From: Nereocystis luetkeana
Taxonomy: Eukaryota > Sar > Phaeophyceae > Laminariales > Laminariaceae
Assembly (NCBI GenBank): GCA_031213475.1
Contig: JARUPZ010000025.1
Span: 6,087,676 to 6,151,675 of the forward strand
DNA: 64,000 bases
Direction: 5' to 3'
This document shows, in pieces, positions 178-64,000 of the stretch (its first letter is position 1; every line of letters starts with the position of its first letter). The notes beneath the pieces are model-generated. The model saw only the letters and a program-made list of their open reading frames with translations, did no database searches and had not been told where the DNA came from. The position numbers and the translations under genes were made by a program.

Positions 178-925
178 ATAGTACTTCAGTACCAGTTCGT
201 TAGGTATATAGATGATAGTGGTAAAAAAGCGCCCCCTTGCAAAAGAAGGGTAATCTATATCCCATGTACCGCACCTGGTAATTTTTTGCCATTATTGTTT
301 CTAGTTTATTCGCCAAGCGGCAATGTTTTTACTGCTTGATCCAATCACACCATCCACATATACACATATTAAGGGGATTCAAGGATCCGATGACTTCGGA
401 CATACTCGGGGAGAAATTACGTACCTGGTACACGTTTTCGCACTGCTGTGTGGAACTGTATGTATGCTCAGAAATCTGCATGACACACGCCTCCCACACT
501 GATCGGATCGCGCCCAGACCCCGACAGCGTGTCCGGGCGATCACCCCCCCCCCCCCCCCACCTTATAAAAACTTCTAGTTTTTTTCTCAAACGACGCGCG
601 CACGAAGAGACACCATCGAAAACAGACGAAACATGGACAGAATACAACTGCCGTACATGCCCTATGCCCCGAAAACTGCGCAGCACATGCTGTACGCACC
701 ATTGATTATTCCAGCTGCCACACAGCTCGAGCGATAAGTGCGGAAGGATTCGACCGATCCACGTCGTCCCTGACTTAGGCTCTCCCTTAGCGTCCAACGA
801 TATCCCGTGTCCAGGTACCCGCCAGTCCTCTGGCAGTAGTCAGACGCAGTATGTAGGGCCGAGAATGAGAATCAACCAATTGATATTAAGAACGCCGTCA
901 GACCCAAAATATTTTTGGGGGACAA
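178..925. other. No gene recognised
   Basis: The stretch holds a C-run at 543-559 and one TACCTGGTA palindrome at 422-430. Short open frames exist on both strands but show no family resemblance, no repeated use and no convincing splice context. Confidence 0.5.
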
Positions 926-927
926 CG

Positions 928-1039
928 CTATTGCGGGGTAAATTAGTATTCAGGACCTAGCATGCGTAGTAAAAATACTGCAGTATATAGGTTTCTGAGC
1001 GTACCGTGGGTCCCGATATTTGTGGTCTCCCCGCTATAG
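928..1039 (+). mobile_element. Family B MITE, degenerate copy
   Basis: A diverged copy of the TTACGGGGG...CCCCCGTAA family. The left end reads CTATTGCGGGG, the interior keeps the GTATATAGGTTT block, and the right end is GGTCTCCCCGCTATAG. It is recognisable only by comparison with the better copies between 45 and 62 kb. Confidence 0.6.
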
Positions 1040-1281
1040 TCCCGTCGGAATAATAAAAATGGTGCTCACAGCGGCGAGCGCTATTTTATTGCACCGCTGT
1101 GTTCACGGAATCCCCGCAGTAGGTGGGTGTGCGCGGTCCCTGAATTATAGATATTCGGGAGCCCGCCCCAGAGGCGAGCACTTCAGCCGGTGTCAAACCG
1201 ACATATATTTGAGAAAGGGCAGCGAAATTTTTCGAACATCACGATTCGCTTCAACCATGCGAATATCACAACTTGCTTCAA

Positions 1282-1381
1282 CCCTTTTTGGATCGCAGTC
1301 CCGTTTTAGGGGCAATTGGGGACAAAATACTTGAAAATTTGAGTGGTTTGCCTTCTAAACGGGACTGCGGTTCTAAAAGGG
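1282..1381. mobile_element. Family A foldback MITE, copy 2
   Basis: Both arms are present. The loop side is enlarged by an extra GGGGCAATT block, which makes this copy about 100 bp. Flanks are TCAA on the left and TTAA on the right. Confidence 0.85.
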
Positions 1382-1577
1382 TTAACTACGCCGACTGGCG
1401 CGGGTTCGTCATCGACTATCGTTTCACTTCGCTCTCCTGCGATACAATTGGTCCAGTTTTCGTGCTCGCCGAGCATAGACTACGAGCACAAAACGTGGTA
1501 CGCTTTTCGCATATTCAGCTCTGCTTGCAAGCCCTTGTTTGGCATTGGCGACGACTCGAAATAGACCACACCTCTCG

Positions 1578-1700
1578 ATGATCTACAGATAGATCATTAC
1601 CTAGATCATTTGGCTCCTTCGCTTGCCGTTGTCAAGGGGTTGTGCAGGATCTACATAGTAGTACAGGCCCAACCCAGGAAACAGGTGGCCACAGCTGTAC
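1578..1700 (+). repeat. Dispersed repeat family F, partial copy
   Basis: It shares the block GATCTACAGATAGATCAT and the downstream blocks TTGTGCAGGATC and CCAACCCAGGAAAC with copies near 45.6, 52.2 and 54.7 kb (the last reversed). The family is non-coding and of unknown type. It matters because its 52.2-kb and 1.6-kb copies preserve the empty target site of the family B insertion at 45.7 kb. Confidence 0.65.
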
Positions 1701-1746
1701 CATGTAACACCCATGTAACACTATCATACTATTAATAGGGTGGTAA

Positions 1747-1936
1747 GAGAACACACCCGGGGAAAAAATTCCCCCCCGGGCTTTCTGAAACATGCCTTAA
1801 GGGGCACACACAACGAAAATTGTGGCTTTGGAAATATTGCGTCGAGAAGGTTGCACGCATCGCTCGTCGTACTCAGTACGCCCTACCTATCGTCGAGAAT
1901 CTCAGCTTCGAAAATAGCCCGAGGGGGTGTGTTATC
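1747..1936 (+). mobile_element. Family D MITE, copy 1
   Basis: A repeat of about 190 bp starting AGAACACACCCGGGG and ending GAGGGGGTGTGTTATC, which are imperfect terminal inverted repeats. The interior blocks CATGCCTTAAGGGGCACAC and GTCGAGAAGGTTGCA recur at 16.4 kb. Reverse and partial relatives lie at 60.1 and 33.4 kb. Non-coding and non-autonomous. Confidence 0.7.
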
Positions 1937-2070
1937 TCATCACCCAGCGAGATAGTGTTACACCGTAAATCGCGTAGATTGTGCGGGTCCCACCGGGCAC
2001 CACTAGCTACTACCAGGTATACAACGAGTAGATCATACAGATCGGGAATGGAGACCTATCTGCTGCTTGA

Positions 2071-2159
2071 CCCTTTGAGGACCGCAGTCCCGTCTTGGGG
2101 ACAAAGTACTTGTAATATGAGTGGTTTGCCCCCCAACAGGGACTGCAGGCCTACAAGGG
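2071..2159. mobile_element. Family A foldback MITE, copy 3
   Basis: A full-length, diverged hairpin copy. The left end CCCTTTGAGGACCGCAGTCC pairs with a right end GGACTGCAGGCCTACAAGGG. Flanks are TTGA and TAGA, so the target duplication has decayed. Confidence 0.8.
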
Positions 2160-2690
2160 TAGAATCGACGATCTGCCTCTCCGAGGTGTGATATAATCTC
2201 CTCTTTCGCTGCAGCATTGTTACGCACCAGGCGCAGTATCATACCGCCGTGTTGAACTTTTGGCGACCAGAGAGAGAGAGAGACAGCTGGCATCTGTTTG
2301 TACCGTACGGTTGAGCACTGTTATTGGTGTGTAATAAACATGCCAATCATATGTTGTAAGTGTGTGGGGGGGTACCTACAACTAACTGCTGTATGGTGTT
2401 TGGGTCTGTCTTTTGTCTTCTGATAGCTGCCGGCATGGCCCACCTCTGCCGTAAGAGGGCGCTGCATGCTCTGGATGCCGGTACTTGTCAGAACACACAT
2501 AAAGGACATACCACGTTCTGGGTGCCGAAGGTTGTGATAGGAGTAACGATGTACTGCTGTAGTCCTATACCGCTCTTTTTAGCGGAACATCAGACCATTC
2601 ACCAGGTAAAGATTAAAAAAAAAACTACAGCCGAGAGATCGAGGATTCTGCCGAAATCCATCTTCGCAAGCTGTGTGTGATATGGTATTT
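2160..2690. other. No gene recognised
   Basis: Contains a short GA dinucleotide tract at 2270-2282. No exon with convincing splice sites and no repeat shared with the rest of the window was seen. Confidence 0.4.
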
Positions 2691-2699
2691 CGACTACCG

Positions 2700-3698: not shown

Positions 3699-4311
3699 GT
3701 CACCCGCCTTGCCGGCTTTCTCAGGCTTACGGTATCAACTTATCACAAGGGTGACGGCGAGCCTCGATGTGGAGGGCATATACTGAAAAAATCCTCGTAT
3801 AGGCAGTGGCCTGATCAAATAGCAAGCAACCACTATCCACAAACACCATACGAACACGCAGTCAAAATCTCAGTACAATACGAGCACCAGGAACTGATGC
3901 AGTACCGGTCGTACGAATACAGGCTTCGTATCTATTAAAGAGTCGATGCGCAACACACCTCACCTATACTTTCCTTTCCCCATACTGCCGGCAAGGCCCT
4001 GCAACGACTTCAGACAACCGGCGCACAACCAAAGCCTGTCTGTGCTACCAATCGCACCACGAAAAAGCCTGTGAACGCAGCCACTAGAAAATACCAGGTA
4101 GCAGTATACTGGGTAGCACTGCTCTTAATTATTACCTGGTACATTAATACTACCACTATACCGCTGCTTGCTGCTGCGCCTGCTGCAGCTGTACATACAC
4201 ACAATCTACGCCATATCCCAGCAGCATCAACCTCGTATTATAGTAGTAGTGTTGAACACATCGATGTATCAATGGCCTGTCTGAGCTATTGCACCTCTCG
4301 TACGAACCTAC

Positions 4312-6480: not shown

Positions 6481-6955
6481 CCCTTCTACCCCTCCTGTCC
6501 CCCCCCCTCTCCGCATTCCCTTGGTCGGGCTTTCTGTCACTTCTCCTGTTGCCCCCTCCACCCCCGTTCCCTTGGACACCATCCACGGCGGATGCGCGGC
6601 GCTGCCTACTCATCTCAGCCTCAGCCTCGTGCCACCTCACCATGAACCGTTCGGCTGCTTCAAGGATCCCCCGGTACCACTTCCCCGCCTTTTTGGCTGC
6701 AGTGGACCACAACGCGGTCTCAACTCCAAACACCAAGCGGGCAACTTCCGTTGACCCTTCGGTGGCTCGGAACTCCCTAAGGTCTTCGACTATGCATCTA
6801 TGCCAAGTCTTACACTGTCCGCCTGGTCTCGGGTTCTCCCCACCAGCTATCGTCCCGAACATTATCCGACTGGGCAATCGCTCCTTGCTTTGCCGTGCCA
6901 CGCCCCCCGCAAAGAAGAGCCGCCGTTTACGAATGGTCGTTTTATGCTCTCGCAA
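6416..6955 (-). pseudogene. LINE C-terminal segment, frame-shifted
   Basis: The third frame of the broken LINE. Residues near the start include [20 protein letters not shown], and further on KWYRGILEAAERFM. This is the conserved tail that follows the reverse transcriptase in this LINE type. It is joined to the RT frame by a one-base shift in the T run at 6940-6943 (an A run on the coding strand). The last third, rich in G, R and D, is probably beyond the natural stop. A related tail segment, with KAGRWFRRVEEGAEAFM, occurs at 29.3 kb. Confidence 0.75.
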
Positions 6956-8265
6956 CGTGTCATCTTGGGGGCCTTCGCGTACGAGAGGGTGGCATGGTCA
7001 GTACGAAGTCGGCGCTGGAAGCCAATGACTCGCAACAGGACTTGTTGGTGAGCCGTTCGAAGCTTGGCAAAGTGTTCCGCTCTGAGGGTCCACGTCACAC
7101 ACCCGTACAGCAGGGTCTCAATCACCTTGGCCTTCAGCATTCGGACTTTAAGGCTAAGGGGGGCGGTCGTCCTATCATACAACTCCGGGCCGAACCGTTT
7201 GAGGCATGCTCGCATGAGGCGGATCCGTCGGTCGATTTCGAGCGAGAGCGCAGCGTTTTCGTGGATAACGCCGCCTAGGTATAAGAACTGGGTCGTCTGC
7301 TTTTTATACCTCAGGCCTGCCGCTTCGATGACGAGCGGTGGTGCGAGGGTTGTCCGGTCTGGTGTTTGTAGGGCCATTGTCTCAGTCTTCTTTTCCGACA
7401 CCGTGAGGCCTGCTGCTTCGAAGACAGTCACGATGACTGTCATCATTTTTGCGAGCCCTTCAGCCGACTTCGAGACAATGCCTGCATCATCGGCGTATAA
7501 CATGCCCCATACAGACCTTCGCACGCACGCCAATAGCTCCTCCTTCCCTGTTCGAACTACTCCAGCTTCACTGAGTTGGACCAAATCCCTTACAATGGCT
7601 TCGTCTTGGCTGAAGCGTACTAGTACGACGTGTAACGCAGCAGCGAAGAACACGTTGAGCAGTAACGGTGATAGTACACAGCCTTGCCGCAGCCCCTGCG
7701 TGACATCAAACCATTCCGAGAGCTCGCCGTCATCAGTACGCACGCGAGCCCCCATGCCATCGTGGAAATTACGGATAATTCTCAGCATCTTGGTTGGTAC
7801 GCCAAAGCGTGTGAGTACCTTCCATAACAGCTCTCGGTCGACAGAGTCGTACGCTTTCTGCAGATCGATGAAGCACACGTGTGAGGGGATTTTGCTCTGT
7901 CGTGCGAGCTCTTGCAGCCGGCGCAGGACGAGCAACATATCAATCGTTGATCGTGCGGGGCGGAAGCCGCACTGTTCCTCAGGGAGTAGTTCCTCGGTCT
8001 CGCAGTACTTGCTGAGGCGGGACGCGACGATTTTCAATAACACTTTGCCTGCGTGGGCAACAAGCGAAACCCCTCTATAGTTGTTGCAGTCAGTTCGATC
8101 CTTCTTTTTGCGAAGGACCTTGATGATCGCATCTTTCCATTGCTGTGGGACTTCTCCTGTTAACCAAACATTGACAAGGATGTTGTGAAAAAATACTGGG
8201 CGAATGCCGGGTGGTCGATTTTTAGGAGTTCGACCGGGAGACCATCTGGCCCGACAGCCTTCCAA
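6862..8265 (-). pseudogene. LINE reverse transcriptase, frame-shifted
   Basis: This 467-residue frame carries the RT domain that copies the element RNA at the nicked target. Visible motifs in order: NNYRGVSL (61-68), CGFRPARST (99-107), AYDSVDR (138-144, first catalytic Asp), [10 protein letters not shown] (191-200) and YADD (257-260, the catalytic Asp pair). All catalytic residues are present. The first 23 or so residues are out of frame: the true upstream sequence lies in the endonuclease frame, and the shift is in a six-base A run at 8188-8193. A second shift near 6940 removes the C-terminus. Confidence 0.9.
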
Positions 8266-10058
8266 TTCGACATCCCCTTAAGTGCTTCTGTCATCTCGTC
8301 TATGGATGGTTCATCTTCAAGCGGCAGTTTAGGCGGTCGCGGTGGCAAGAGGTCGATGATCGTGGGATCGAGTTTCAGCGACTTCGTGTTCAAGAGTTTG
8401 TGGTAAAACCCCGCCCATCGTTCACGAATTCGCACCTTATCCCGTAAGATCGTGCCATCCTCGTCCCTAATGAACTGTTCGCTCCTCGCTTTAATCCCTT
8501 CCAATCCTACCGTACTTATAAGGTGCTTGTAAAAGCCTCTCTGGTCGTTGTTCGCTAGGAGTCGTTCGGTTTCGGCAAGGTACGCTTCGAAGTACGCATG
8601 CAGTCCTGCGGCAATCACCTTCTGCAGGTTCGCACACGCAGATCTCAGGGTCTTCCACGCGGTTCTGCCCCGGGGGTGGGCACGCAAGAATCGTCGTGCA
8701 TCCTCCCTCGCTGTCCATGCTGGTATGAATGCGGCCAAGGTTTCGGCAGATTCACACCACCCATGTCTGCGGTGGCGACGTGCAGGGGGTGGTACCTCTT
8801 TTTCGACCGCATCAAAAACAGCCGTAGTGAAAAACTCAACCATACCAGACGTATTACGGGGCTGGATAGGCTGGTTGAGAGTGGGGATGACTCTGGAGAC
8901 TACTCGTTCACGACACTTTCCATCGGACATAAAAAGCTGCCTGTCGAACTCTCGGCGTTTTGTCGGTCTACGTATTTGTCTGTTGGGCGCAAAATGACCA
9001 CATAGCCGGACTTTGATATACAAGATGTTGTGGTCTGAGTCAGCCTTAGCTGGGGCAGGAGGCTGTGGGACGACTTTCGCATCTTGTACTCTAGGTCGAT
9101 GGACTTGACGGGTTAGGATGTAGTCGATCCGCTTACGGTCATTCGGGCCGGTGCCGTTGTGAGTATGCGATATCCCACCCTTGCGCGTACTGAAAAACGT
9201 GTTGGTGAGAGCTAACTTGCAATTAGTGGCGAACGACAGGAGCCGTCTGCCATTATCGTTACGAACATCACGTCCATACGCTCCCAGCACTCTGCTTTCA
9301 TCATCACCGCACCCTTCCTTCCTCTGTCCAGTTCGCGCGTTGGCATCCATCAGTACAAACAGACACTCTTTCGTCGGATTTTTTTCCACCAAGTACTCCA
9401 GCTTCTGCCAGAAAATACGTTTCAGTTCGGCGTCCTTGGTACAACCAGTTGGAGCATACGCAACGACGAAATTGACTGCCTCGCATTTGCCAGCTAGCTC
9501 GAAGCGCAGAGACATTAGCCGCTCGTCAACGAACTGATGAGTATACACAGACTTACTGCACAACGATTCCTTGACAGCTAGGCCTACTCCGTACAGCCCT
9601 TGCCTGGTGGCTGTTGTTTCCTGTCCTGGACAGACAACACGATACCCTGCCGCACGGAACGTCGTGCTGCCGGACCTCCGAGTTTCCTGCAGGCCAATGA
9701 AGTCACAGCCGAATTGCCGTCCCTTCGCCAGTACACGCTCGTCATGTCCGTACCCGTTCTTCCCCTTTACAGCCAGGGTGCGCACATTGTAGGTCGCTAC
9801 CGCCACAAGTGCCTCCTTCTGTCTCTTACGAGCCTCGCGTGCTGCTTTCTTTGCCAGCCGACGTGAGGCTCGCCCCCGCCTCCTTTTTTCTTCTTTTGTT
9901 TCTTTTTTTTCTCTTTGGCGAAAGTGGCTCTCCGTTTCGTAGCCCGGTACGCGCCTTGGTTTCCGTTGGCTGGGTGCAGCCGTCCCAACCCACGCCGACA
10001 ATCCCATCCTTCCTGTCGTGCACGCATACCCACGCTGTGGCCAGCCTCTCCACTCCAC
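8160..10058 (-). pseudogene. LINE endonuclease plus RT N-terminus
   Basis: This 632-residue frame starts with a basic region (residues 45-82, rich in K, R and E). It is followed by an AP-type endonuclease domain that nicks target DNA: ATYNVRTL (88-95), GLQETR with the catalytic Glu (122-127), YAPTG (201-205), LMDANA (236-241), RIDYIL (310-315) and SDHNIL (341-346). After a linker it reaches the RT entry motif [14 protein letters not shown] (600-613), then frame-shifts. All endonuclease motifs look intact. The start codon is the first Met of the frame and the true 5' end may differ. Confidence 0.9.
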
Positions 10059-10320
10059 CGGCTGCCCACGTAGCGCTCTCTGCTGTGGTGATGTACCCGT
10101 CCCGCCTGGGGGATGAACTCCTCGCCGTCGGGGTCACGAATAAAAAGCATCACCACCACCCCACGCGGTCCTTAAAGCGAGCAGGCCACCAGCCGGACCG
10201 CGCAGGGTTCCCTACCTACCTAGTCCGAAGCTCGATGTTCGTGTGACTGTCGCTAGACCGCTGCAGGCCCTTGCGGACTTCCTCGGCCCATTCCAAGGAC
10301 GGGGCAGGCCGAAGGGTAGT

Positions 10321-10530
10321 GGGTAGGCACAATTCGATGCGAGTCGACGAGGGAAGAAAAGGCTGAAATCTTCTCGCGATAAAACTGAAGGCATGTACTG
10401 TAGCGGGAAGGGGGGAGAAGAACCTGCTACGTATGTGACCCCGGATCTGAGCTACGAGTTGGAAGGGGGGAGAGAAGGAAGATGGGCGAAGATAATAAAT
10501 GGGATGAGAAAAAAAGAAAAGAAAAAATAA
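10321..10530 (+). mobile_element. SINE body and A-rich tail, 5'-truncated
   Basis: Matches the body of the SINE seen complete at 17.8 and 50.7 kb, from GGGTAGGCACAATTCG through GATCTGAGCTACGAGTTGG to an A-rich tail at 10508-10529. The tRNA-like head is absent, as expected of 5' truncation during target-primed reverse transcription. It lies immediately beyond the LINE 5' leader. Confidence 0.75.
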
Positions 10531-10865
10531 GGGTTCTCGACCAGGCCGTCGAATGGGTATTGTCCCGCGGAGGTCCCACCATTCGCCGAGGTCGTGGATA
10601 TCCGTATCTTATTGTACGACTGTGGTCACCGATATTCCTGGACTATTTGTTGTTGTCAGCAGAGATGTCATCAGCAGTGACATTGTCCCGTGACAAGTAG
10701 CCACTGCAGATTGGAATGCAAGGACCGTGCCTTGCACACACACTCTTCCTCTCTATCATCGTTGATGGTCGTTTCGTGGGATCGTCCGTACCGATCCTAT
10801 ACCAAAACCAGGCGTGTCCTACACGCTACCTTCTAAGGAAAGGGAAGTGCCATATATATATCGAG

Positions 10866-10932
10866 TCGAACCTGGGGGCCCACCCCACATTGGGCGTCGA
10901 CGGCAGGACGAACCTGGGGGCCCACCCCACAT
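10866..10932 (+). repeat. Direct repeat of 24 bp
   Basis: The 24-base string beginning CGAACCTGGGGGCCCACCCC occurs exactly twice, at 10866-10889 and 10909-10932, separated by 19 bp. Confidence 0.85.
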
Positions 10933-11016
10933 ATAACGCATTTTTTTCTGCCCTTCATTCCGTGTGGCATCCTCGAATTGTTCTGCATATATATACTTGT
11001 ATACTATTGTACCTGG

Positions 11017-11073
11017 TATTGTATTGTATTGTATTGTATTGTATTGTATTGTATTGTATTGTATTGTATTGTA
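11017..11073 (+). repeat. TATTG pentanucleotide microsatellite
   Basis: About eleven uninterrupted GTATT units. The first unit is split by a TACCTGGTA at 11010-11018, which looks like a CCTGG insertion into a TA of the repeat. Confidence 0.9.
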
Positions 11074-11262
11074 TGCACGATTGCCACGACTATGGGTATT
11101 GAAGCAAAGCGGGGGAAATGTGTGTGAGCCTTGCTCGTGGAAATAATTGGCCAAAGTGCGAGCGGAAATGTTTGTCCAAAATTAGGTTATATACCTGCAC
11201 TTCTTTTCGGTGTACGCATCGACTACTTACGACAACAGCAGCAGCAGCAGTATAGTAGTGCT

Positions 11263-11311
11263 TACCTGGTACCTGGTATTTACCTGGTATTTATGACTTA
11301 TGTACCAGGTA
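11263..11311. repeat. Cluster of four TACCWGGTA palindromes
   Basis: Palindromes at 11263-11271, 11270-11278, 11281-11289 and 11303-11311. The first two overlap by TA, giving TA-CCTGG-TA-CCTGG-TA, which is what repeated insertion into a shared TA would produce. See the finding on this motif. Confidence 0.85.
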
Positions 11312-11670
11312 TATATATCGAACCCTCCTCTTGATTTGAGCTTTTTGTCTGTCGATATATCACACCGAGAACTCCCGTCTCGTTCGATTCTCGTCCGAAA
11401 CACGAGCGTATATCCACCCACATTTATTTCCCTTAATTATTATACTATGAAGGCCCCCCTTGGTGGTAGACAGAGATATCTTTACCCGTGGTATTACAAG
11501 GAGGAAACCTAAACAAATACCTGGTATGATTGATGGTACCAGCACCCTGCACGATATTCTGCGACACAACCTCTCTCTGGTGCTACGCACATCTTCAAGG
11601 AAAGTTCAGCAGCAACCAAATACTGTACTGCTAGGATACTGCCACGATGCGGTAGTGCATTGGCCCCTCT

Positions 11671-13150
11671 GTAGTGCGTTTAACGTTAGTGGATCACCAT
11701 GCTTAGTGGATCACATTGGGAAAAACGCGTAGTGGATCACCGGGCTAGTGGATCGCAAATCCGTTAGTGGATCACCATGCTTAGTGGGTCACATCGGGAA
11801 AAATGCGTAGTGGACCACCGGGCTAGTGGATCACATTAAAATTTTTCCAAAAATGAGTGGTGGATCACCGGGCTCGTGGATCACAATTAATTGCGAAAAT
11901 GAGTGGGAGATCTCCGGGCTAGTGGATCACAATTGCGAAAATATATGAGCCGCAGGAAGAGCGAGACGGCAGGGGCTCTCTCCTAGTCACTACCGATAGC
12001 AGTGTAGACCAGCAACACCGCACGACCTTCTGCGCGTTGAAACATGCGTGTAGCAGTAATAAACCAGCCATTTTGATGGACAGCGGGTTTTTGGTAGATG
12101 CTTCTTCGGAGGGGAGTGGTCGTTTTTTGGTGGACGAGATGAAGGGACGTTAGTTGTAGTAGTCTTCATGAGCGTCACATCAGTTCTGATTCGTCATAGG
12201 ATACTGCCGCGCTTTTGCTCTGGAGAGTTGTTCGCACTTTCTGTTTGTCGCTCATTAGAACAACACTACACATTGTCGGATGTCAAGCATAATAATAATG
12301 AGTGGTGGATCACAGGGCTGGTGGATCACAAATTCGAAACTAGCTGCTGGACCCCCCACACTACCACGGTGCAACAACGTCTCAACTTCACACTTCGTGA
12401 TACACTATCCTGTTTTCCAGCAATCATTCTCCCAGTGTGATTCACTAAGCATGGTGTTCGCTTTTCTCTGGTACGAAATCGTACTTCTTGTATCTTTTTC
12501 TGGTACGAAATAGAAAAAGCAACAATATACGATTTCGTACCAGAAAAAGATACAAGTATTAATAGTACGATTTCGTACCAGAGATAAACGAACACCATGC
12601 TTAGTGGATCATACTGGAAGAAAAACTGCTGGAAAACAGAGAAGAAGTAGAGAAATTGATGCAAAACAGCGTTATGAACTACCCTGGTAGACAACAACGA
12701 TTTCGAACCAGAAAAAGCATCGAGAAATAAACACGATTTCGTACCAGAAAAAAGTACAAGACGTGCGATTTCGTACCAGAAAATAATAACAAGACATACG
12801 ACTTCGTACCTGAAAAAAGTACAAGAAATACGATATCGGACCACAAAAAGATACAACAAGAAGTATACCGTTGTACCAGAGATAAACGAATAACATGCTT
12901 AGTGGGTCACACTGGAAAAAAAACTGCTGGAAAACAGGATAGAGCATCACAACAATGACATGTGTGAAGTTGAGGAGTTATTGCACCGTGGTAGTGGGGA
13001 ACCCAGCACTCATTTATTTTGGCAATTGTGATCCACTAGCCCGGTGATCTACCACTCATTTTTGGAAATGTGATCTACTAGCCCGGTGGTCCACTACGCA
13101 TTTTTCCCGATGTGATCCTTTAAGCACGGTGATCCACTAACGCACTACAC
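11671..13150. mobile_element. Foldback element with GTGGATCAC repeats
   Basis: The left arm (11671-11945) and right arm (13005-13150) are inverted copies built of short repeats such as TTAGTGGATCACCATGCTTAG and GGGCTAGTGGATCAC. The left arm carries an internal tandem duplication of about 75 bp. Between the arms sit nested smaller inverted repeats (TGTTTTCCAGCA against TGCTGGAAAACA) and a minisatellite of CGATTTCGTACCAGAAAAA units. No transposase frame is visible, so it is non-autonomous. The subterminal repeats resemble transposase-binding arrays of foldback or Mutator-like elements, but I cannot assign a superfamily. Confidence 0.75.
12470..12860 (+). repeat. Minisatellite CGATTTCGTACCAGAAAAA
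   Basis: Seven or so units of about 27-35 bp containing ACGATTTCGTACCAGAAAA, with two reverse-oriented units at the left (12473-12512), forming a hairpin in the centre of the foldback element. Long frames through it encode only the repeat. Confidence 0.8.
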
Positions 13151-13344
13151 CTCTATACCAGGTACACGATAGTGCCATTTTACAGCAGCCAATAATACCG
13201 GCCCTACGAAGAAAGCGGCAACCGGCACCAAACTCCGCACGCTACCAGTACCACAACAACATTGATTGGATATTCCCGTAGGTGTCAAACGATCTCGCCG
13301 GCATTCTGTAGGGCGCAGCCGGCACTGCTCAACTGGCACTAAGG

Positions 13345-13745
13345 CTCATTCTTATCGGAGAGCGTAAATTTTCCATAATTTTGAAAGATTGGAGATGCCT
13401 TTTCGTAGGAGTTACTTATCAATATACGGAGGGTTTCCATTTGTTTCCGAGGTTTTCTTCTTTCGGGAAAGTTATGAGTGATCGATGTTGATGATCATGC
13501 TGCACATTGTCGGATAGCAAGAGGAGTACATTAATATACGGAGGCGTCCTATACCACTATTCGTGAAATTCTCCACAATTTGTCAAGCAAACAAAATCAA
13601 GTTCGTTAAATTTCACAGATATATATGTAGAAAAAAATCTGGAAAACATGGAAGATTGAAAAATTGCGCGAACAAAATGTGGAAAATATATACACGAGTA
13701 TATATATATATGGAAAAAAAGCCTAACCCATAAGAATGACCCTAA
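13345..13745 (+). repeat. Repeat related to element C interior
   Basis: Shares blocks CTTATCGGAGAGCG, ATACGGAGGCGT, TATTCGTGAAATTCTCCA, AATCAAGTTCGTTAA and AAGATTGAAAAATTGCGCG with 40784-41030, which lies inside a TIR element. Terminal repeats were not found here, so this is a fragment or a copy with lost ends. Confidence 0.7.
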
Positions 13746-13807
13746 ATAGGGACCACTAGTAACACCGTACAAAAAACGCCCCTCACAGACTACCAGTATG
13801 TCCAAAT

Positions 13808-14345
13808 ATCAGTATTTTCAGCTTTCAGTACCCAAGGGACTCGCGCGATGACTCGGCCATTTCAGCTTTCAGCACCATAATAAGAACTCGCAAGGACCCA
13901 GTCATTTCAGCTATCAGTAAAATCTGGGGACTCGGGAAGACTCAAACCATTTCAGCTCCCGGTACACTGGGTATTCAGTACTTCAACACGACTCAGGCTC
14001 GCGAGTCGATGACTGAGTCCCAATGACAGAGACTGGTACTGGTATTTCTGACGACCGTTCGCACTGTATTTGGAAGGACGATGACGAAATAGACAAAAAA
14101 AACGTGTCTTCTTACTTGTTTAACCCTTTGGCTCGGTACTCGCTAGGACTCAGCCATTTCCGCTTTCAGTACCCTAGGGACTCGCGAGGACTCTCGCTGT
14201 CATTTCAGCTTCTGGTACCGTGGAGACTCGGGAGGACTCTGACAGTCATTTCAGCTTCCGGTATACCCAGGGGACTGGCGAGGACTCAGTCAACTTCCGG
14301 CACCCTGGGAACTCAGCATATATATACCTCAAAAGGACTCAGACT
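13808..14345 (+). repeat. Minisatellite TTTCAGCTTTCAGTACCC, about 45-bp unit
   Basis: Imperfect units of the form CATTTCAGCTTTCAGTACCC then GGGACTCGCGAGGACTCAG repeat from 13808, with a diverged interval at 14010-14130. The open frame across 14023-14649 is partly a translation of this array. Confidence 0.8.
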
Positions 14346-15660: not shown

Positions 15661-16384
15661 ACTGTAGGTGTGTGACAGGTTTCACACATGGATAGATCAC
15701 AGTTCCCCATTTTCGCTATCTCGTATATTCCGGGAAATATATCTTCCTAGAATAAAACTACCTGAAACATCTGCGCATGTACTGTAGATATCACGTTTTT
15801 CGGTTGGAATCTTATGTGCGAGACAGTTCCTGCGCAAGCACTATACCTATGTACCAGGTACACGTTTGCAGTGTGGAATCTTGTTTTCAGTATGATACCG
15901 ACCTATGTTGCAAAACATATCACAACTAACAACACGAACCATACGGCCTTTAAACCCTGATCGTGTTCTCGACGTGTAGAACACAGCCAGCCGTTTGTAG
16001 TCCGATGCTCCTGCGGGGGTGTTCGGGTACGAGGGTTCGGCTCTTGCGGAGGGAGGGGGTAGGGCAGTAAGATAACGAACAGGGGGGGGTACATCGATAC
16101 TGTTGACAATTTTTGGTTGCTGGCAACATCGCGCCTTTGTTTCATAGGGGGGTCGGCATTTCGTTTTTTGGTATTACGGACATTCACGCCATATACCCGA
16201 ACACATTTAGCCATATGGCAAACGAAATATCAAGGTATGCAGCATTACCATCAACCCCATATCGGAAACTGAGAGGGGACAACAGACGATGAAAAACATT
16301 GGGACTTCGGAGGAAGAGGAAACCGGAGATATCCGCAAGGAGTCCTTCCGCATGGGCGCAACCTGTACCGGATACTATAATCAA
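15661..16384. other. No gene recognised
   Basis: Unique-looking sequence with one TACCAGGTA at 15852-15860. No supported exon, repeat or RNA gene. Confidence 0.4.
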
Positions 16385-16596: not shown

Positions 16597-16884
16597 TTGC
16601 GTGTTATGCGGTATACCTGGTATATATTTTTCCCGCTCGTACGTCTTGGCGCTCACGCTTTTCCCGTAGGTGGCTGACAGCATCAAAGATACATATACCT
16701 GGTACGTATCAATTGCTTCGCTGTCCCGGGTTTTCCTGCGGGGAGACGTCTCTCGTCGTCCCGCAATCGGTGTATTTCGGCCGCGGGGCGGTGCGTCCCA
16801 AGTGTTTGAGCCCGCCCTTCCGTGATAGGGGGAATTATCAGGTACATATATATATATATAATACATATACATACAGTGCACGCA

Positions 16885-19605: not shown

Positions 19606-19980
19606 TATAATTAACGGAGACCATAGTGAACAGGACTCGTCATACAAAGAGTCCCCCGCACGGTGGGGGTTGAACGTTATGGGCCAAAAGTTTCTGACCG
19701 ATTGAGTTCCTAAGTGAAGAACTAGCAGTTAGGATGAAATGTTTACTCGCATATTCGTTTTAGGATTAGCGCACACAAGTGCCGGTCGGGTGGCACGAAG
19801 TAATTTCTTCCAACTATTACTATTGTATCGGGTTGGATATTGAGCTCCTAATACAAGGGGCTCAGGAACGTCTGGTGCACCCCTATTGTGGGATGGCTCC
19901 AAACTAAAACCTACGTACCTGGTTTTCCATTATGGTTACATAGCATTTTCGGTCCTGATTACTGTGTTCCCCCGTATTCG
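19606..19980 (+). mobile_element. Long relative of family B
   Basis: The left end TAACGGAGACCATAGTGAAC and the right end GGTCCTGATTACTGTGTTCC with CCCGTATT mirror the family B termini but enclose about 375 bp instead of about 110. The right part matches the degenerate copy at 53.2-53.3 kb. At 19915 the sequence CCTACGTACCTGGTTTTCC corresponds to CCTACGTATTCC at 53.3 kb, that is, a CCTGG-containing insertion at a TA. Confidence 0.55.
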
Positions 19981-39882: not shown

Positions 39883-40520
39883 TGTGGAGGCATTCTACGT
39901 TAGGGGGAGCCTTAGGAGGCGTGCTACCGGAGAGGTAGAATTATTATTAAGGGGTGTTCTACGGTAGAGGTAGCCTATGGAGGCATGTGACGGTAGGGGT
40001 AGCATGGTACCTATGGAGGCGTTCATAAATACGGAAGCGTGCAACGGTAGGGGTAGCATGATTACGATGGAGGCGTGCAACGGTAGGGGTAGCATGATTA
40101 ATCTGGAGGCGTTCTACGGTATGGGTCGTATGGTTGCTCTGGAGGCATTTTACGTAAGGGGTGCTAGTACTATGGAGGCGTTGACGGTAGGGTTAGCACG
40201 ATTACTATGAAGGCGTTATACGGTAGGGGTTGCACGATTACTTTGAAGGCATGCAACAGCAGGGGTGGCATGAGTACTGTGGAAGTGTTCTACGGTAGGG
40301 GCAGTTTATGGAGGCGTGCTACGGTAGGGGTAGCATGATTACTATGGAGGCGTTCTACGGTAGGGCTATGATAGCATAATACTGTGGAGGCGTTCTTGGT
40401 GGGGGTAGCATGATTACTATTGAGGTGTTCTACGGTAGGGCTGTAATAGCATGATTGCTATGGAGGCGTGGTACGATAGGGGTAGCATAACCACTACGGA
40501 GGCGTCTTACGGTAGGGGGG
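39883..40520 (+). repeat. 36-bp minisatellite GGAGGCGTTCTACGGTAGGG
   Basis: About seventeen units of the form GGAGGCGTTCTACGGTAGGG then GTAGCATGATTACTAT, some with internal deletions. The same word GGAGGCGTTCT occurs singly inside element C (40.86 kb) and GAGGCGTTCTACGATAGAGG occurs at 55.62 kb. Confidence 0.85.
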
Positions 40521-42995: not shown

Positions 42996-43115
42996 TATTA
43001 CGGGGGACCATAGTAAATAGGACCAAATAGTGTTGGTAAAAATAGCGAAATATATAGGATTTTGTATGTGCCGAAGTTCCTATTTAATATGGTACCTGGT
43101 ACATTATTGGTAATA
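42996..43115 (+). mobile_element. Family B MITE, right end altered
   Basis: The left end TATTACGGGGGACCATAGT is intact. At the right end the expected GGTCCCCCGTAATAG is replaced by GGTACCTGGTACATTATTGG then TAATAG, so a TACCTGGTA (43093-43101) disrupts the terminus. Confidence 0.8.
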
Positions 43116-44007: not shown

Positions 44008-44834
44008 CTCACAAAAAGAAAGCGTGGGTTTTTTTCTGCCACGGCCCGCAGCCCAGTAGTCAAGGGAACGCTAGACTTTGGGCGGTTTCGCTCGTACGGC
44101 CTTTCTTTTGTTAATTCGCTGCCTGTGAGCCTGTGCTGTGTCTGCCCCCCGCGCGGGATAGACAAAAGGCGGTCTCGAAAAACGCCTGCTCCGGTGATCT
44201 TCCTGTGGCAAAGGTGAAGCGGGAGAGGGAGACACTGGGGTCGTCATGCACTAGTTACCCCGACGACACAATATTGGACAATACTTGATACGTTGAAGCC
44301 AAGGTATGCACATTGTGGTACGGATAAATCTATTCACAAGCAGCATCAGCAGTTAGTTCGACCGGCAAAAACGCTAGTACATAGTGGTACTGCAGTCGAA
44401 AACACATAGCTGGTACGGTATTCATACCGGGCATATTTTTCTATTCGCAACCTCCGTGATATGTCGACACGCATGAATGGGCTGTTCGCCGTGGACTTAC
44501 TTACATCCAATACGTTCCGGCCAATAGTACAACAAGACACTTACCAGGTATGATAACAGAACATCATGGGAATGGAGACGAGGTGAAAAAAAAAAGAAAA
44601 AAAAAAAAAAGAAAGGGGGACGACACGCTGACAGAGAAAAGATCTGATGTCGTCGACGTTTACCATGGGTGGCCAGAGAGTATATACGCCGGCAGCGCTT
44701 ACCATGGATGCCCGTAGCGCGTAAAATCAACTGAAAACTAAGTTCAGAACGAACCAGCCCAGGCCTGAGCCCCCAGCCATAAGGCTCGACGAATAGAGGA
44801 CTTCACCGTAGTGGACTTTCCGTGTTTTCAACAG

Positions 44835-45574: not shown

Positions 45575-45970
45575 AACAGCTAGGTCGTCTAGATAATCTA
45601 CAGATAGATCGTCTACAGATAGATTCTCGACATCACCTATAGTAGAATCCTAACCCGACCGTCCCGAGGTGCCGTGCAAGATCTGTTAACGTATTACGGG
45701 GGACCATAGTTATTAGGGCCAAATATTGTTACCTGGTAGTAAATATGGTTTTATGTATACCACAGTTCCTAGTAACTATGGTCCCCCGAAATAGTACAGA
45801 CCCAATCTAGGAAACGTGTCCTAGAGCATGCAGATTAAAACGTCTCCCACCGGGAAACATGGGCAAATGCAAACCTGAACTATTGAATGGCTCATACATA
45901 ATACATAGATCATACAGATCATACAGACCATACAGGTCATACAGATCATACAGATCATGGATCCATCCCC
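45575..45970 (+). repeat. Family F copy interrupted by a MITE
   Basis: Begins with ATCTACAGATAGATCGTC and GTGCAAGATC, is interrupted at 45692-45793 by a family B element, then resumes with GTACAGACCCAATCTAGGAA. It ends in a 9-bp microsatellite (CATACAGAT units, 45895-45958). The same order without the interruption is found at 52.16-52.40 kb. Confidence 0.75.
45692..45793 (+). mobile_element. Family B MITE with mapped insertion site
   Basis: TTACGGGGGACC...GGTCCCCCGAAA flanked by TA on both sides. The surrounding family F sequence GTTAACG-TA-GTACAGA matches uninterrupted GTTAATA-TA-GTACGGA near 52.27 kb, so the element inserted at and duplicated TA. Its interior also holds TACCTGGTA at 45730-45738 where other copies read TTGTTAGTAAA, a nested CCTGG insertion with its own TA duplication. 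Confidence 0.85.
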
Positions 45971-48804: not shown

Positions 48805-50640
48805 CATAAGAGAAACACAAAAGGTAGTACAGTCCCGGCGAGAGTGGTACGAGTAACTACATCCGTCAACATCGCAAGTTGAAGTTGCTTGGTTGCAACT
48901 TCGTCCAGCCCGCGACTTTTATGTCTCGCCCTTATGCTATCGGGAAGCAAAGTTTCACGGTCTTCAACTATAGCAGGAGGCCTCCTCTCGCCCCACTTCC
49001 CCGCTATGATACAGGACAGGGAAGATGGTGAAAAAAACGGACGCATAACTTCGACCTATCGTAGGCGTTGTTCGAATAATATTGTAGCACGAAACGAGAT
49101 AAACGAAGTTGGGTACGTCCTCAGTTCAGGACCCGCACCGTCAGTCGAGGTATCCAGCCGAAAAATGCGCAGCCCGCGTCCACTGTAGAAATAAACAGAC
49201 TGGATATTAGAGGAGGAAATCGGGGGCGTTTTACGTACCAGGTACTAACTTGAGAGATATGATAACATTCAAGTTTCGTGTAAACTTCAAGTTTCCTGCA
49301 CCCATCAGCCTATTTTTCCCCTAGTGCTCGCTTTCTTAGAACTTTATTTCGGGAGGTACACTTGGTAGGTGTGACACACTGGATGGTTTGAACGTCTGTC
49401 TCGTTCATCAAGAACTCGACCGCAGAAGCCACCATCACGAACAATTTCGAAACCAAGTCATGCAAAAAAAAAAAAAAGTTACGTCTTCATACACGGGCAC
49501 ATAGCAATACCTGGTGCGGCTCTACTCTGTTGTACGGGGAGTTATAACTGCAATAATTGTCCTAACCAATCGAGAGGAGGATATCAGACCCTTGCCTCGA
49601 CTTGCTCACGTCGATAGTGCTTACTCCCACAGCTACACTGCTCGATGGCCCTACCTCGCGGATCATTCATTTCCTCCCATAACTACTCAGTTGCTACACC
49701 CTTACTCCCGTAACCACCCAAAAAGCATACCCACTCTTCCTCCCGCAACCACCCACTAAATATCGACCTTCGCGTGGTATTGATATTTCAAGGGCCCTCA
49801 AAAGAAATAATTGCAAGCACGAAACACTTTCCCGGTATACATCGCATCACGCTGCTAGAAAAAAAAAAAGCCGAAACCAGAAAACACGGACTACGATCAT
49901 CGCGTACGAGAAACTGCCCGCATAACCTTTAATTTATCCTCACGATCCTTCCTCGCGGCGGCAGGACGGAGTTGTTGCCGGCCAAATCCACCAAGCACCT
50001 AGTTTTCCAGTGCTCGTACTCCGCCGTATGCGTCGCTCGTCTAGTACCCGCCGCACCCTCGCCTTTCTCTCTCTCTCTCTATCTCTCTCTCTCTCTGTTG
50101 CTTCTCTCTTGCTTCTCTCCGGAATGCGAGCTCTCAACCTCAACCCCGCTGCGCGCTCCACCCAACACGAAAAACCTCAACAACCTTCGAGCACACTCTC
50201 TCTAATCCAACCATGTATCCCCGAACTAAAACATGCCTCCAGTATATCAAGAGTCAACATCACGCCGCTCCACAACAACCATAGCTCCTACTGCTGTACA
50301 GTGCGCAGATACCTTCAGTCACCCCTTCGAGATCGAGCCCCCTTCTTTTCTCCTCACCCGCCCGCCCGCCCGCCCGCCCGCCCGCTCTCCCGGGTGCGGG
50401 GCGGTAGAAAAAAAACAGGCAGAAAAAAAAATGCCGGCGGCGCAAACGGCGCATCTTTTCGGACGCCGTATTTTTACGCTGTTTTCAAACGGCGGAAAAA
50501 TTGCGTGGCACTGGAATTCGTCGTAGGCAGTGTGTTGTATCCTTATCAGCTGTGTGATAGAATAGTGTGATACCGCCACCACTCCATGATGAAAGGTCGC
50601 CACAGAGGGATACATAACGTCTCAGAAGAGTACACCAGGT
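48805..50640. other. No gene recognised; microsatellites
   Basis: Holds a CT tract at about 50068-50098, a CCCG tetranucleotide tract at 50357-50385 and a TACCAGGTA at 49236-49244. Open frames near 50010-50570 are largely these tracts. Confidence 0.4.
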
Positions 50641-51322: not shown

Positions 51323-51436
51323 TATTGCGGGGGACCATAGTAAATAGGACCAAATATTGTTGGTAAAAATAGCTAAATATACCTGGTATGGTTTTGTGTG
51401 TACATTAGGTCCTATTTAATATGGCCCCCCGTAATA
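51323..51436 (+). mobile_element. Family B MITE inside minisatellite
   Basis: Both ends are intact and flanked by TA. The interior AAATATATAGG of other copies reads AAATATACCTGGTATGG, placing a TACCTGGTA at 51380-51388 as a nested insertion. Confidence 0.85.
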
Positions 51437-51866
51437 GTACGGCAGCCTCTACCGTAAAAAACGCTATTAAAAATCACACCTTCCACCCGACACTGCTACC
51501 AATAGTACTGCAGCCCCCACATACCACGGTCTACGGTAAAACACGCTGTAAGACAACGCCCCACCTAGGATGCTGGTTTCGAGCTGATCTCCTCCAAAAA
51601 ACAAGGCAGGCCACACACGAACAAGGATGGTGGCTCGCTCGGGGTGTACGCCTCTCCCGGTTGTGGACGAAACCAGCCTCGAAATTCGTCCGTGGGGAGG
51701 CGTGTTCGCTCTCGTGCGTGTTATAACATACCAGGTAGCTATATACTCCGGATGTAGGCTACTTCTGTAACCCTAACACGATTCGCCCCTTACCTCGACT
51801 GTCCCGCTTACGTCTGACCTGCGTGCGAAAACAGAACTCAACAGAGCACTCTTGTATCTAGACTGA

Positions 51867-55930: not shown

Positions 55931-55931
55931 A

Positions 55932-57639: not shown

Positions 57640-58510
57640 GGTGTTTCCGCCACAGCTGCATGTAGCCCCTACACATGGGCTGATCGCGTTGAGGTTGCTC
57701 GTGGTAAGTAAGGGATGTCAGTGGAAAGCTCCCTTCAACCAACAGTGACGTACGTCTGACTGCATCACGAGAACCGGCCACACGGTGCAGCCCGGCCTGA
57801 GTAGGGATGCGTCTGGAGTGAACAAAGCAACAACCGTTGAAAAAAAAAAAGGCCCACGTAAAAATAAAGCACGCGTGAAGGATGATGATACGACGACAGA
57901 CCAAGCAATACCTTCAGGGGGTGGCACCTTACTATTCTCTGAGCTCAGCGCAGGGGAAGCTCAATGCCCTCACTCGAAACATGGCTACGAAGAAGTTTGC
58001 TCACGCGACCCGACCAACATTTCCACGCGCTAGTCCTAAAACTAACACCTCGTGTACTGCAGTAGGGGGCGTATAATACTAACCGGTATTCTAAAAAATA
58101 ATAGTCCCTCGCTTGACGAGCTCAACCGGTCAGAGAATATTGCCTCAAAAGGCGAGAAGTTCAGCCCCTACCGCCGGATATAGTCGACAAATATGCTGGA
58201 CTTTATCGCGCTCTTCCTAGAAGGCTGACATAACACCGCGCTTGCCGCTGTTTAATGTGTATTAAGGCCCCTATATTCGGGTTCCAAAGAATGCCTCGAA
58301 TGCCTCTACAAATTCATGGCATCTCATCCGCTTACAGCATATCACCTGGCGCCAAGTATAATTATCGCGCATGTGGAAGCGGGCGATTTTCGGGAAGCAA
58401 ACATTTTCAGCCTTTACCCACACTAAAGATATACCAGGGTATCCCTCTCGTGCATAACAACAGTAGTACTCGACGGCGCCTATTTACAACCTATGAACTG
58501 TACCACTTGG
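57640..58510. other. No gene recognised
   Basis: Unique-looking sequence with no defensible exon. Confidence 0.35.
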
Positions 58511-58859: not shown

Positions 58860-59496
58860 CCCACCCGGGTCTATAATCGGGCAACACCTCTACCCTGATC
58901 CCATCCGGACCTGATCTTATGTGGCCCCCTGCTCCCAAATAGTGGTGTACAAATATAGTCAGCCCTGCGAAGGATTAAAATCGCCCGAGGCCGACAGCGC
59001 AAAGTGCGAACCGAAATACCGTATGAACGGTCCATGGATTGTAAATAGTAAATAGTTACGCCCGTAGCGATCGGCCTCAGCACTCTTGGGGTCTTAGTTT
59101 TTCGGCGCTGTCCTATTTACTGCTGTAGAACCTCGCATTCGCTCATAATAGTTACCGGTGTATCCTATAGGTACTGCTGTAGACCGTAACACGTGTCACA
59201 GCTGGCATGGTGTGCGTATCACACTTTGCTTGCGTTCTCCGAGACAGCAGTTTTGATCAGAAACTGCCGCGGTTTGGCTTGTTCCAAGAACAGATGCATG
59301 ACAGATGATGGACGTGTTTTCTTCGCTTATAAAGCCGTTCTTCCTACCTGGTATAATTTCTTGTATACCTGGTACATGGTACAAAGTAACCAGAAATATA
59401 TGCACGTGCATCGTATACGTACATAGATGAGCATATGTATGTTTGTCCAACTTTCGTTCGTTTCAAACGTATATCTTCGTACGAGCACTTGTTCGG
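58860..59496. other. No gene recognised
   Basis: Two TACCTGGTA palindromes at 59345 and 59366. Otherwise unremarkable. Confidence 0.35.
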
Positions 59497-59945: not shown

Positions 59946-60095
59946 CGAATACGACGCAGGATACATCATACACCATAAAAATATGTATCATGCCTGGTAC
60001 AGCACCGTACAATTACTATACGAATACGACGTAGGATACATCATACATCATACAAATATGTATCATACCTGGTACAGCACCGTACAATTACTCGT
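59946..60095 (+). repeat. 75-bp tandem duplication
   Basis: Two units start CGAATACGACG at 59946 and 60021. Both contain a CCTGGTACAGCACCGTACAA stretch, preceded by G in the first (GCCTGGTA) and A in the second (TACCTGGTA). Confidence 0.85.
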
Positions 60096-61946: not shown

Positions 61947-62161
61947 TTAACAGAGAACGGAGTGGAAAACGCACACCTGTAGCTTACACCTGGTACATAC
62001 CAGGTATGCAACGTTCGATATTATGCTACGTCGATATTTCGACAACTCGAAGTTTTGAAGTATCGGTACGAGCATGCCATGCACAACACAGAACAGAACG
62101 CGCATTTGGCACTGACCACTCTGCACTATACCAGGTACACCATTTAATAGTACCAGTATAG

Positions 62162-62272: not shown

Positions 62273-62442
62273 AGCTCAACAGGAAGGTCCTTCTGCGAAC
62301 GAAAAGGTGTAAATTCGCAGCCACGGAACTTGCATAATATCATACTATTAATAGGCATATACCTGATACGTGTATGATACGTGTAAGAGTATACGAGGAC
62401 CCACAGCAGCAGTGGTATTAAAAGTAGATACCTGGTACAGCA

Positions 62443-62533
62443 CTTTAGAACCGCAATCCCTTTTTGGGGACAAACTACTCGGAATTTGAATGAATGGTAT
62501 GTCCCCAAAAACGGGACTGCGGTTCTAAAAGGG
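62443..62533. mobile_element. Family A foldback MITE, copy 19
   Basis: Full length apart from the left-most bases, preceded by TACCTGGTACAG at 62429. The loop has a 4-bp duplication (GAATGAAT). Confidence 0.85.
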
Positions 62534-62701
62534 CGCCCTATGTGTTAAGAAACATCAATTTGGCGTCCAGGCTCCGTGTCTTTTTTTTCGACCTCGACCA
62601 AACTCTGTTGTATACCAAAATTTAGAGTTGGCCCCACTGTTGAGCTGTGGTTCTTGACCCAATTTTCTCATTGTTCCTGCCGATCTGCCTATTTTTCTTA
62701 G

Positions 62702-62788
62702 CCCCTTTCGTACTGCAGTCCCAATTTGGGGAGGAACGAATCTAATTCCAACTTGTTTCTACCCAAAACGGGACTGCAGTACTAAAAA
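62702..62788. mobile_element. Family A foldback MITE, copy 20
   Basis: Diverged hairpin copy with left flank TTAG. The right terminal GGG is lost. Confidence 0.8.
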
Positions 62789-63049
62789 TGCCGGCGGCTA
62801 CTGCTGTACAATCAGTAGCGGTCCCTCCATAGTGCTGGAAGAGTAGTGTGCATCAGCCGACAAAAATACCAACACTATACTCGTAGAGGCAACCGGCGCT
62901 CCTCCGCGCAATACCATACCACACCCTGCCGAATCCCATCTGTGACAAGCGATTGCACAGGCACTTGTAGCGGGCGACTGGCACTACTCAACCACCACTA
63001 CACAGGGACCACTACTCTGTACTCACTGCTCTGTACCAGGTATCGCTCT

Positions 63050-63306
63050 CTTTTTTTTTTCCTTTTTTTTTCATCCCATTAATTATCTTCGCACATCTTC
63101 TTCTCTCTCTCCTTCCAACTCGTAACTCAGATCCGGGGTCACATAGCAGGCTGTTCTCCCCCCTTCCCGCTGCGGTACGTGCCTTCATTTAATTGAATAC
63201 CTTTTTTTTATTTTTTTGCAAATAAAAAGTCCGACCCTCCTGGGGCTCGAATCCAGGACTCAAACAAGTAGAATTCGAGTTTAACCACTTGAACCACCGG
63301 GGCGAC
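63050..63306 (-). mobile_element. tRNA-derived SINE, internally deleted copy
   Basis: T-run, tail, head and B box all match the 17.8-kb copy, but about 90-100 bp of the body between TGCCTTCATTT and AATTGAATACC is missing. A deletion variant such as this can be mobilised like the parent. Confidence 0.85.
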
Positions 63307-63360
63307 CGGCTCTAGAGAGAGACGATTTATGCCTGGTACGAAGTAAGAGGATATGTATAC

Positions 63361-63655
63361 GTACGAAAGAAGAATCAGTGCCATAGATGTTAGATGTACG
63401 GTACGGAGCCAGGCTGTGCACTGGGTGCTGAGAAGGGATGAGTTGCCAATGATGCAGGAGGCCGTTGGGTAGAAACACCGGTTTACTGCTGCGAAAAAAA
63501 TGTGAAGACCACACCACCAACGAGAACAACAACAATAGCAGCAGCAGCAGCAGCAGCAGCAGCCAGCAGACTCTCAATGCCTCTGGCAGAGTGTGCTGGT
63601 ATTGTGGTGTGTGTTCTTCAGAATATACTTTTCTTTCTACCCGTCGACATCTTGA
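63361..63655. repeat. Inverted pair of family H repeats around CAG tract
   Basis: A plus copy (GGGTAGAAACACCGGTTTAC and ATGTGAAGACCACAC at 63470-63515) and a minus copy (GTGTGTGTTCTTCAG and TTTCTACCCGTCGAC at 63607-63650) flank a CAG tract at 63537-63562. The locus can fold into a hairpin with the triplets in the loop. Confidence 0.65.
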
Positions 63656-63707
63656 TGCATTGCTATGCTGCTGTACAGCAGTAGTAATGTACCAGGTAGT
63701 TCTTTAA

Positions 63708-63796
63708 CCCCTTTAGAACCGCAGTCCCGTTTGGGGACAAAACTACTTTAAATTTGACTGGTTTGTCCCCAGAACGGGACTGCGGTTCTAAAAGGG
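63708..63796. mobile_element. Family A foldback MITE, copy 21 (near consensus)
   Basis: 89 bp, TTAA on both sides (63704-63707 and 63797-63800). Arms pair almost completely. Confidence 0.95.
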
Positions 63797-63892
63797 TTAA
63801 GCAGGATGACTACCACCCTGTTGCCATACCTGGCAGGTAGACAGCAAGAACAAGGCGCATCTCGGTGTATCCGCTGATTTTAGGGCTGCTTT

Positions 63893-64000
63893 GTAATAGT
63901 CTGCAGTCTCGTTTTGGGGACAAACCAGCAATATTCCTGAAAGCAAATACCTGGTACAGCAGTACCCGTAGTACTCTGTAGTTTTTTCCCTAAACAGGAC
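63893..64000. mobile_element. Family A MITE copy 22, at window edge
   Basis: The left arm GTCTGCAGTCTCGTTTTGGG and the loop start are clear. The loop side then contains extra sequence with TACCTGGTA at 63948-63956, and a decayed right arm runs off the window. Confidence 0.6.

Follow-up and report, generated by a model that had tools for sequence, protein, structure and literature searches.

TACCWGGTA in the Nereocystis luetkeana genome: a 7-bp insertion at TA and a probable transposon excision footprint

We analyzed a 64,000-nucleotide stretch of the brown alga Nereocystis luetkeana (GenBank assembly GCA_031213475.1, contig JARUPZ010000025.1, positions 6,087,676 to 6,151,675, forward strand; here called the window) for a palindromic nonamer, TACCWGGTA, which the initial annotation had described as an apparent insertion scar. 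An exact motif search reproduced the 38 copies reported there. The form TACCTGGTA (n = 21) lies at 422-430, 4133-4141, 11010-11018, 11263-11271, 11270-11278, 11281-11289, 11518-11526, 16614-16622, 16696-16704, 25996-26004, 27689-27697, 28008-28016, 29317-29325, 43093-43101, 45730-45738, 51380-51388, 59345-59353, 59366-59374, 60066-60074 (inside a 75-bp tandem repeat found by a tandem-repeat scan), 62429-62437, and 63948-63956. The form TACCAGGTA (n = 17) lies at 2011-2019, 4092-4100, 11303-11311, 13156-13164, 15852-15860, 25782-25790, 26373-26381, 27869-27877, 30086-30094, 30112-30120, 44542-44550, 49236-49244, 51729-51737, 61998-62006, 62129-62137, 63034-63042, and 63690-63698. The copies at 11263 and 11270 form a tandem pair that overlaps by one TA, as the claim of shared boundaries in the 11263-11278 cluster had implied. 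Markov models of orders 1 to 3 predict 0.24 to 0.42 copies of each W-centered 9-mer in the window, or about 0.5 to 0.8 for both forms together, which agrees with the earlier estimate of roughly 0.5. A C or G center is almost absent, also as described: there is one TACCCGGTA, at 26726 rather than 26728, and no TACCGGGTA.

We then extended the count to the whole assembly (465,085,209 bp in 1,987 contigs), as the initial annotation had proposed. TACCWGGTA occurs 182,395 times, whereas the reversed pattern, used as a control, occurs 1,744 times. This corresponds to about 0.39 scars per kb, occupying about 0.7% of the genome's TA sites, estimated at 26 million, and adding 1.28 Mb of DNA. Flanks were examined in a nonredundant sample of 315,559 bp, composed of the window, twenty 10-kb stretches at fixed positions (1.00 to 1.01 Mb of contigs C1 to C20), and merged stretches of C1. 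The latter were chosen for holding the motif, which biases density and not flanks. The sample contains 146 sites with a 20-bp flank, 31 of them in motif-selected stretches, and 145 of the 146 have distinct 6-bp flanks, in line with the unrelated surroundings noted before. These counts confirm that the motif is real and genome-wide.

If the motif had been inserted, related copies of the surrounding repeat should exist without it. We adopted a strict empty-site test, in which 7 bp were deleted at each site and repeat copies were matched across the join, with simple-sequence flanks and self matches excluded. Among the 143 sites with the required 60-bp flank, 7 had an empty copy, 3 others had a filled copy, and 133 had neither. 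In contrast, at 1,153 control TAN5TA sites a copy shorter by 7 was found at 10 and a same-length copy at 111 (the two counts may share sites), and the empty/filled contrast between motif and control was significant (Fisher p = 1.7e-5). The control is not perfectly clean, as one of its 10 shorter sites is TACCTCGTA, one base off the motif, and another overlaps a motif site. The best empty copy retained TA at the join in six of the seven cases. The seventh, on C1 (C1_18502:1501), had TG in a short alignment of 57 columns at 77% identity. Additionally, a gap scan of the alignments returned 46 insertions of 7 bp, 7 of which duplicated a TA, and 5 of these 7 were the motif. The same scan showed a 6-bp insertion, TACCGGTA, relative to its copies, an example of the minor classes described below. 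Overall, 33 of the 61 insertions of 6 bp carried a TA duplication. Many of these look by eye like degenerate (TAN)n arrays and not like scars.

Five filled and unfilled pairs had been put forward for the window. The empty counterpart of the copy at 45730 was recovered in the strict test, with 11 empty alignments in the sample. A looser test gave an empty match at 27 of the 143 sites, several of them of low complexity and some also with filled-like matches. In this test the repeat-borne copies at 26373 and 51380 both had counterparts lacking the 7 bp, and the copy at 26373 was also found in the gap scan. Filled-like alignments, counting the site itself, numbered 13 at 45730, 5 at 26373, and 5 at 51380. 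The comparison of 19917 with 53306 held in part: the similar stretch near 53290 has a plain TA, but the letters of the scar itself (19916-19924) read TACCTGGTT, with the last A changed to T. The case at 11010, within a TATTG microsatellite, proved weak, its sole empty match being a low-complexity alignment of 70% at another locus. Alignment of repeat copies, which had been suggested as a check, thus does yield paralogous empty copies. Since repeat copies without exactly these 7 bp exist, the motif is a 7-bp insertion at TA. The proposed net gain of 7 bp with a duplicated TA is borne out by the empty sites, by the genome-wide excess, and by a mirror-image target preference. The findings named beforehand as fatal to the initial reading (no genome-wide excess, conserved flanks, or a lack of paralogous empty sites) were looked for, and none was encountered.

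The preference itself was evident from the 146 sites, which share the pattern W(-7) R(-6) ... R(-1)-TA-Y ... Y W and nothing else in their flanks. Strong skews occur at -7 (A/T), -6 (A/G), and -1 (A/G), mirrored on both sides, with left/right G statistics of 95.5/56.9, 50.4/48.1, and 14.6/73.3, respectively. Positions -2 to -5 are weaker, the inner preference being A at -3, T at -2, and R at -1, and beyond -8 the pooled G does not exceed 11.3. Such a mirror-image preference looks like the site choice of an integrating enzyme.

Tandem scars of the type TACCWGGTACCWGGTA number 15,917 genome-wide. Uniform insertion would produce 1,277 to 2,555, whereas the preference as measured with tandem flanks left out would produce 7,074 to 14,147. 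Both TAs of a scar have a good half-site beside them, as TACCWGG-TA itself matches W R .... R-TA. The tandem counts support independent events recurring at the same positions, although the agreement is rough and local duplication may add some. Regarding age, we counted genome loci in a loose context (WR....R TA X TA Y....YW) and found 40,709 with CCWGG and 1,204 with CCSGG, or 3.0%. We also estimated that about 62 real single-base variants keep the target context for every 146 exact scars. On account of these two figures, the scars look inherited and decaying, with an average divergence of a few percent, and not remade in each generation.

The minor scar classes bear on how the insertion arose. 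We scored target context in the sample with a score trained on the CCWGG sites. It exceeded 1 at a fraction of 0.13 of 17,635 background TA sites and at 0.71 of CCWGG sites (n = 146), a value that is circular for this reason. The values for the minor classes are independent of the training. Among 4-nt classes, CCAG reached 0.43 (n = 35) and CCGG 0.50 (n = 16). Among 6-nt classes, CCAGGG reached 0.55 (n = 11) and CCATGG 0.75 (n = 4). Near background were CCTG (0.14, n = 14) and CCSGG (0.08, n = 12). A 6-nt example in the window, one base longer than the main scar, is TACCAGGGTA at 58432-58441 (+). Genome matches listed from the start of contig C1 gave a similar picture once alike rows were collapsed (50 to 43 for CCNNGG and 74 to 61 for CNNG). 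The 43 distinct CCNNGG matches comprised CCAGGG 26, CCCGGG 5, CCATGG 3, CCTGGG 1, and others 8. The 61 distinct CNNG matches comprised CCAG 20, CCGG 6, CTAG 3, CCTG 3, CGAG 16, CGCG 6, and others 7; CGAG is absent from the list of context-enriched 4-mers in the sample. CCTG and CCTGGG would be expected from CCTGG overhangs, and neither is enriched. The enrichment of CCAG, CCGG, CCAGGG, and CCATGG, with hardly any CCTG or CCTGGG, therefore points to CCAGG overhangs.

In our model, a cut-and-paste transposon that targets TA and has CCAGG ends most likely left TACCWGGTA behind as its excision footprint. That the motif is a scar is well supported; the excision step, the transposon itself, its overhangs, and the repair steps are inferred. 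The donor would end in 5'-CCAGG...CCTGG-3' and insert at TA. On excision, the cut in one strand would fall 5 nt inside each end, leaving both flanks with a single-stranded 3' CCAGG beside the TA. Pairing between CC and GG could then join the two overhangs, with a single A:A mismatch in the middle. Repair of this mismatch to A or T would give TA-CCWGG-TA, a net gain of 7 bp, and never CCSGG. Overhangs of this kind with mismatch repair would therefore explain a center restricted to A or T. The A/T center of the Sleeping Beauty footprint arises from one central mismatch. A W center would also result from a single 5-mer present in both orientations, and the center alone is therefore no proof of mismatch repair. 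Pairing one base out of register would leave CCAG, CTGG, CCGG, or CTAG when shorter and CCAGGG, CCCTGG, CCATGG, or CCCGGG when longer, which matches the minor classes observed. Each hop would leave one scar and copy number need not rise, so that a few resident copies, given enough time, could account for at least 182,000 scars.

Several results weigh against this model, and they are given here together. The empty-site test was informative at ten sites only, and three of the five motif events in the gap scan lie in stretches picked for the motif. Within the sample taken by itself, CCAG and CCTG do not differ significantly in context (p = 0.096). The 5-nt stagger is implied by scar length only and exceeds the 2 to 3 nt cited for the Tc1/mariner superfamily. 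No full element was found for the scars. Within the sample, a search for TA-flanked inverted repeats ending in CCAGG (identity at 12 of 14 bases, spacing up to 15 kb) returned only pairs that involve scars and one rejected pair, and no terminal inverted repeat beyond CCAGG was found; elements that are rare, longer than the sampled pieces, or with short terminal repeats would be missed by it. Genome-wide, TACCWGGGV with one-sided context has 4,497 matches; in the 100 ends listed, A and T are about equal, with no visible excess of TACCAGGG. Elements of 187 to 247 bp occur at 165 loci, against 163 expected, and no length stands out among the 50 loci of this class listed. As for a transposase, the Tc1-type DDE_3 profile (PF13358) had no match in the genome. 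Neither did the mariner profile (PF01359), for which the control genomes were equally silent, making this result uninformative. The pogo-type DDE_1 profile (PF03184) had 28 matches, the best at C1:8320630-8321181 (-) and C35:5112140-5112694 (+); five share one identical score, four of those on small contigs. No recognizable ends surround the C1 match in L051, the sole stretch inspected.

The rejected pair, 15317/16614 in the window, was considered as a donor and dismissed, as its similarity runs for about 17 bp and then stops. Its pattern has 212 matches genome-wide, and the 100 listed are mostly scars (a T after CCAGG makes TACCAGGTA) followed by TACC.CA. The search for full elements and a linked transposase, proposed in the initial annotation, thus yielded no element and no transposase tied to the scars. 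Its reading of the motif as the excision footprint of a TA-targeting transposon is partly supported: the insertion scar is shown, and excision gains support from the directional minor classes, but the donor was not found. The imbalance between scars and copies does not in itself speak against excision, since an element kept at low copy number would, over many hops, scatter scars widely while its copies stayed few.

The failure to find a donor would also fit an ultrashort insertion, in which an enzyme would open a TA and either add a 5-bp CCAGG duplex or capture one, no larger element ever being involved. One 5-mer inserted in either orientation would likewise give the mixture of CCAGG and CCTGG. 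However, CCAG, CCGG, CCAGGG, and CCATGG are the variants that two overhangs should leave on annealing, and no mechanism is known to add a bare 5-bp duplex at TA; we regard this explanation as improbable. Scarcely better or worse, and by a shade the less probable, is programmed or host-controlled excision, in which a domesticated transposase would remove TA-bounded elements during the life cycle, in the manner of ciliate internal eliminated sequences, and the assembly would show the healed sites. The scars do greatly outnumber detectable elements, and their density of about 0.39 per kb is of the order of ciliate eliminated sequences. Nevertheless, scars remade in each generation should not decay, and those observed decay like inherited sequence (CCSGG at 3% of CCWGG, about 62 variants per 146 exact scars), which therefore speaks against this explanation. 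A protein-binding or CCWGG methylation site spread or kept by selection, left open in the initial annotation, would suit a short near-palindrome such as CCWGG but is now very improbable, as sister copies of a repeat lack precisely the 7 bp, tandem copies of the motif share a TA, length variants of +1 and -1 have the same flank preference, and its flanks are unrelated.

Returning to excision by a transposon with CCAGG ends, we offer a more specific and speculative version, to which we give about one chance in a few. The scars may record hit-and-run mobile DNA, of very low copy number or domesticated, that excises by a new chemistry with a 5-nt stagger and whose self-complementary CCAGG overhangs would lead to near-uniform repair. 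It would visit hundreds of thousands of TAs, leave almost always, and return to half-sites rebuilt by its scars. If the excision reading in general is right, a single genome records at least 182,000 transposition events, and it would become possible to measure in nature, without the element, how targets are chosen, how overhangs are repaired, and how old the hops are. A transposon would then have reshaped a genome far beyond its surviving copies, and copy-based repeat annotation would miss the scars. By title and abstract opening, we met no description of such scars among the papers listed on brown-algal or genome-wide footprints, which does not prove their absence from print. Among the matches listed for the exact motif string, titles concerned unrelated subjects only.

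Other repeats and motifs were seen along the way. A long interspersed nuclear element (LINE) retrotransposon occupies 6862-10133 (-) of the window in two overlapping frames, an endonuclease (8160-10133) and a reverse transcriptase (6862-8277). It contains no exact scar, the nearest being those at 4133 and 11010. Its reverse transcriptase has 1,534 relatives, the 120 listed including one from Ectocarpus. An imperfect 36-bp tandem repeat of 13.6 copies lies at 40033-40518, and transfer RNA and Rfam scans of the window gave no match. Inverted repeats TGGYCCCCCGTAAT stand beside TA and are paired over kilobases (window 45779, 51422, 56760, 57046, and 58758; stretch L036, 194-8206); they are perhaps another family of miniature inverted-repeat transposable elements. 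In a list of enriched TA-X-TA words the independence filter was too strict (8 of the 146 motif sites were kept), and the list was used only to view other words. TAGGACCTA, considered as a second palindromic TA-flanked 5-mer, was rejected because it belongs to one conserved repeat family, with alike flanks in 12 of 12 copies (window, L031, L036, L038, L044, L048, and C1 stretches). TACGAGTA/TACTCGTA has 47 copies with 47 distinct flanks in the 315.6-kb sample (including the window and L031-L050), against about 14 expected under an order-3 model. No target context was seen for it, and it is possibly another motif or footprint.

Finally, we compared the scars with known TA-targeting systems. In the passages cited, Tc1/mariner elements share a one-strand cut inside the end, an end-joining footprint, and a TA duplication (PMC2170065, PMC8151067), the cut lying 2 to 3 nt inside the 5' end and being exact at the 3' end (PMC2170065). 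TA duplication is present at the scars (six of seven empty alignments, five of seven gap-scan insertions), and so is a symmetric A/T-rich preference around TA, but the scars imply a cut of the nontransferred strand 5 nt inside the end. We do not file them as Tc1/mariner, because this stagger is mismatched and no transposase is tied to them. The Sleeping Beauty footprint is described as CAG, from short end-joined 3' overhangs (PMC8151067). The scars resemble it in the duplicated TA, the few terminal bases between TAs, the A/T center and, if our model is right, the end-joined 3' overhangs. They differ in having 5 nt rather than 3, with an overhang that would be near self-complementary with four G:C pairs, and, from Sleeping Beauty and Tc1/mariner footprints alike, in reaching over 180,000 copies within a single genome with no donor found. 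For Tc1 of Caenorhabditis elegans, the cited text gives insertion at TA with the symmetric preference CAYATATRTG (PMC9635669). The inner preference of the scars (A at -3, T at -2, R at -1) resembles it, whereas their peaks at -7 and -6 fall outside the Tc1 consensus and a Tc1-type transposase was not detected. The brown alga Ectocarpus, probably of a related host group, is credited with 17 Mariner-Tc1 families (PMC12477816); the main text of that survey contains neither "footprint" nor "excision". Among plant mariner-like elements, the passages on Stowaway and Osmar report that 2 bp (TA) are duplicated and that footprints consist of terminal bases (PMC1925063, PMC4561436), of which 1 to 4 bp are kept in variable form (PMC1925063). 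The scars share with them the TA duplication and a footprint that would consist of terminal bases, and differ in having one dominant 5-nt product.

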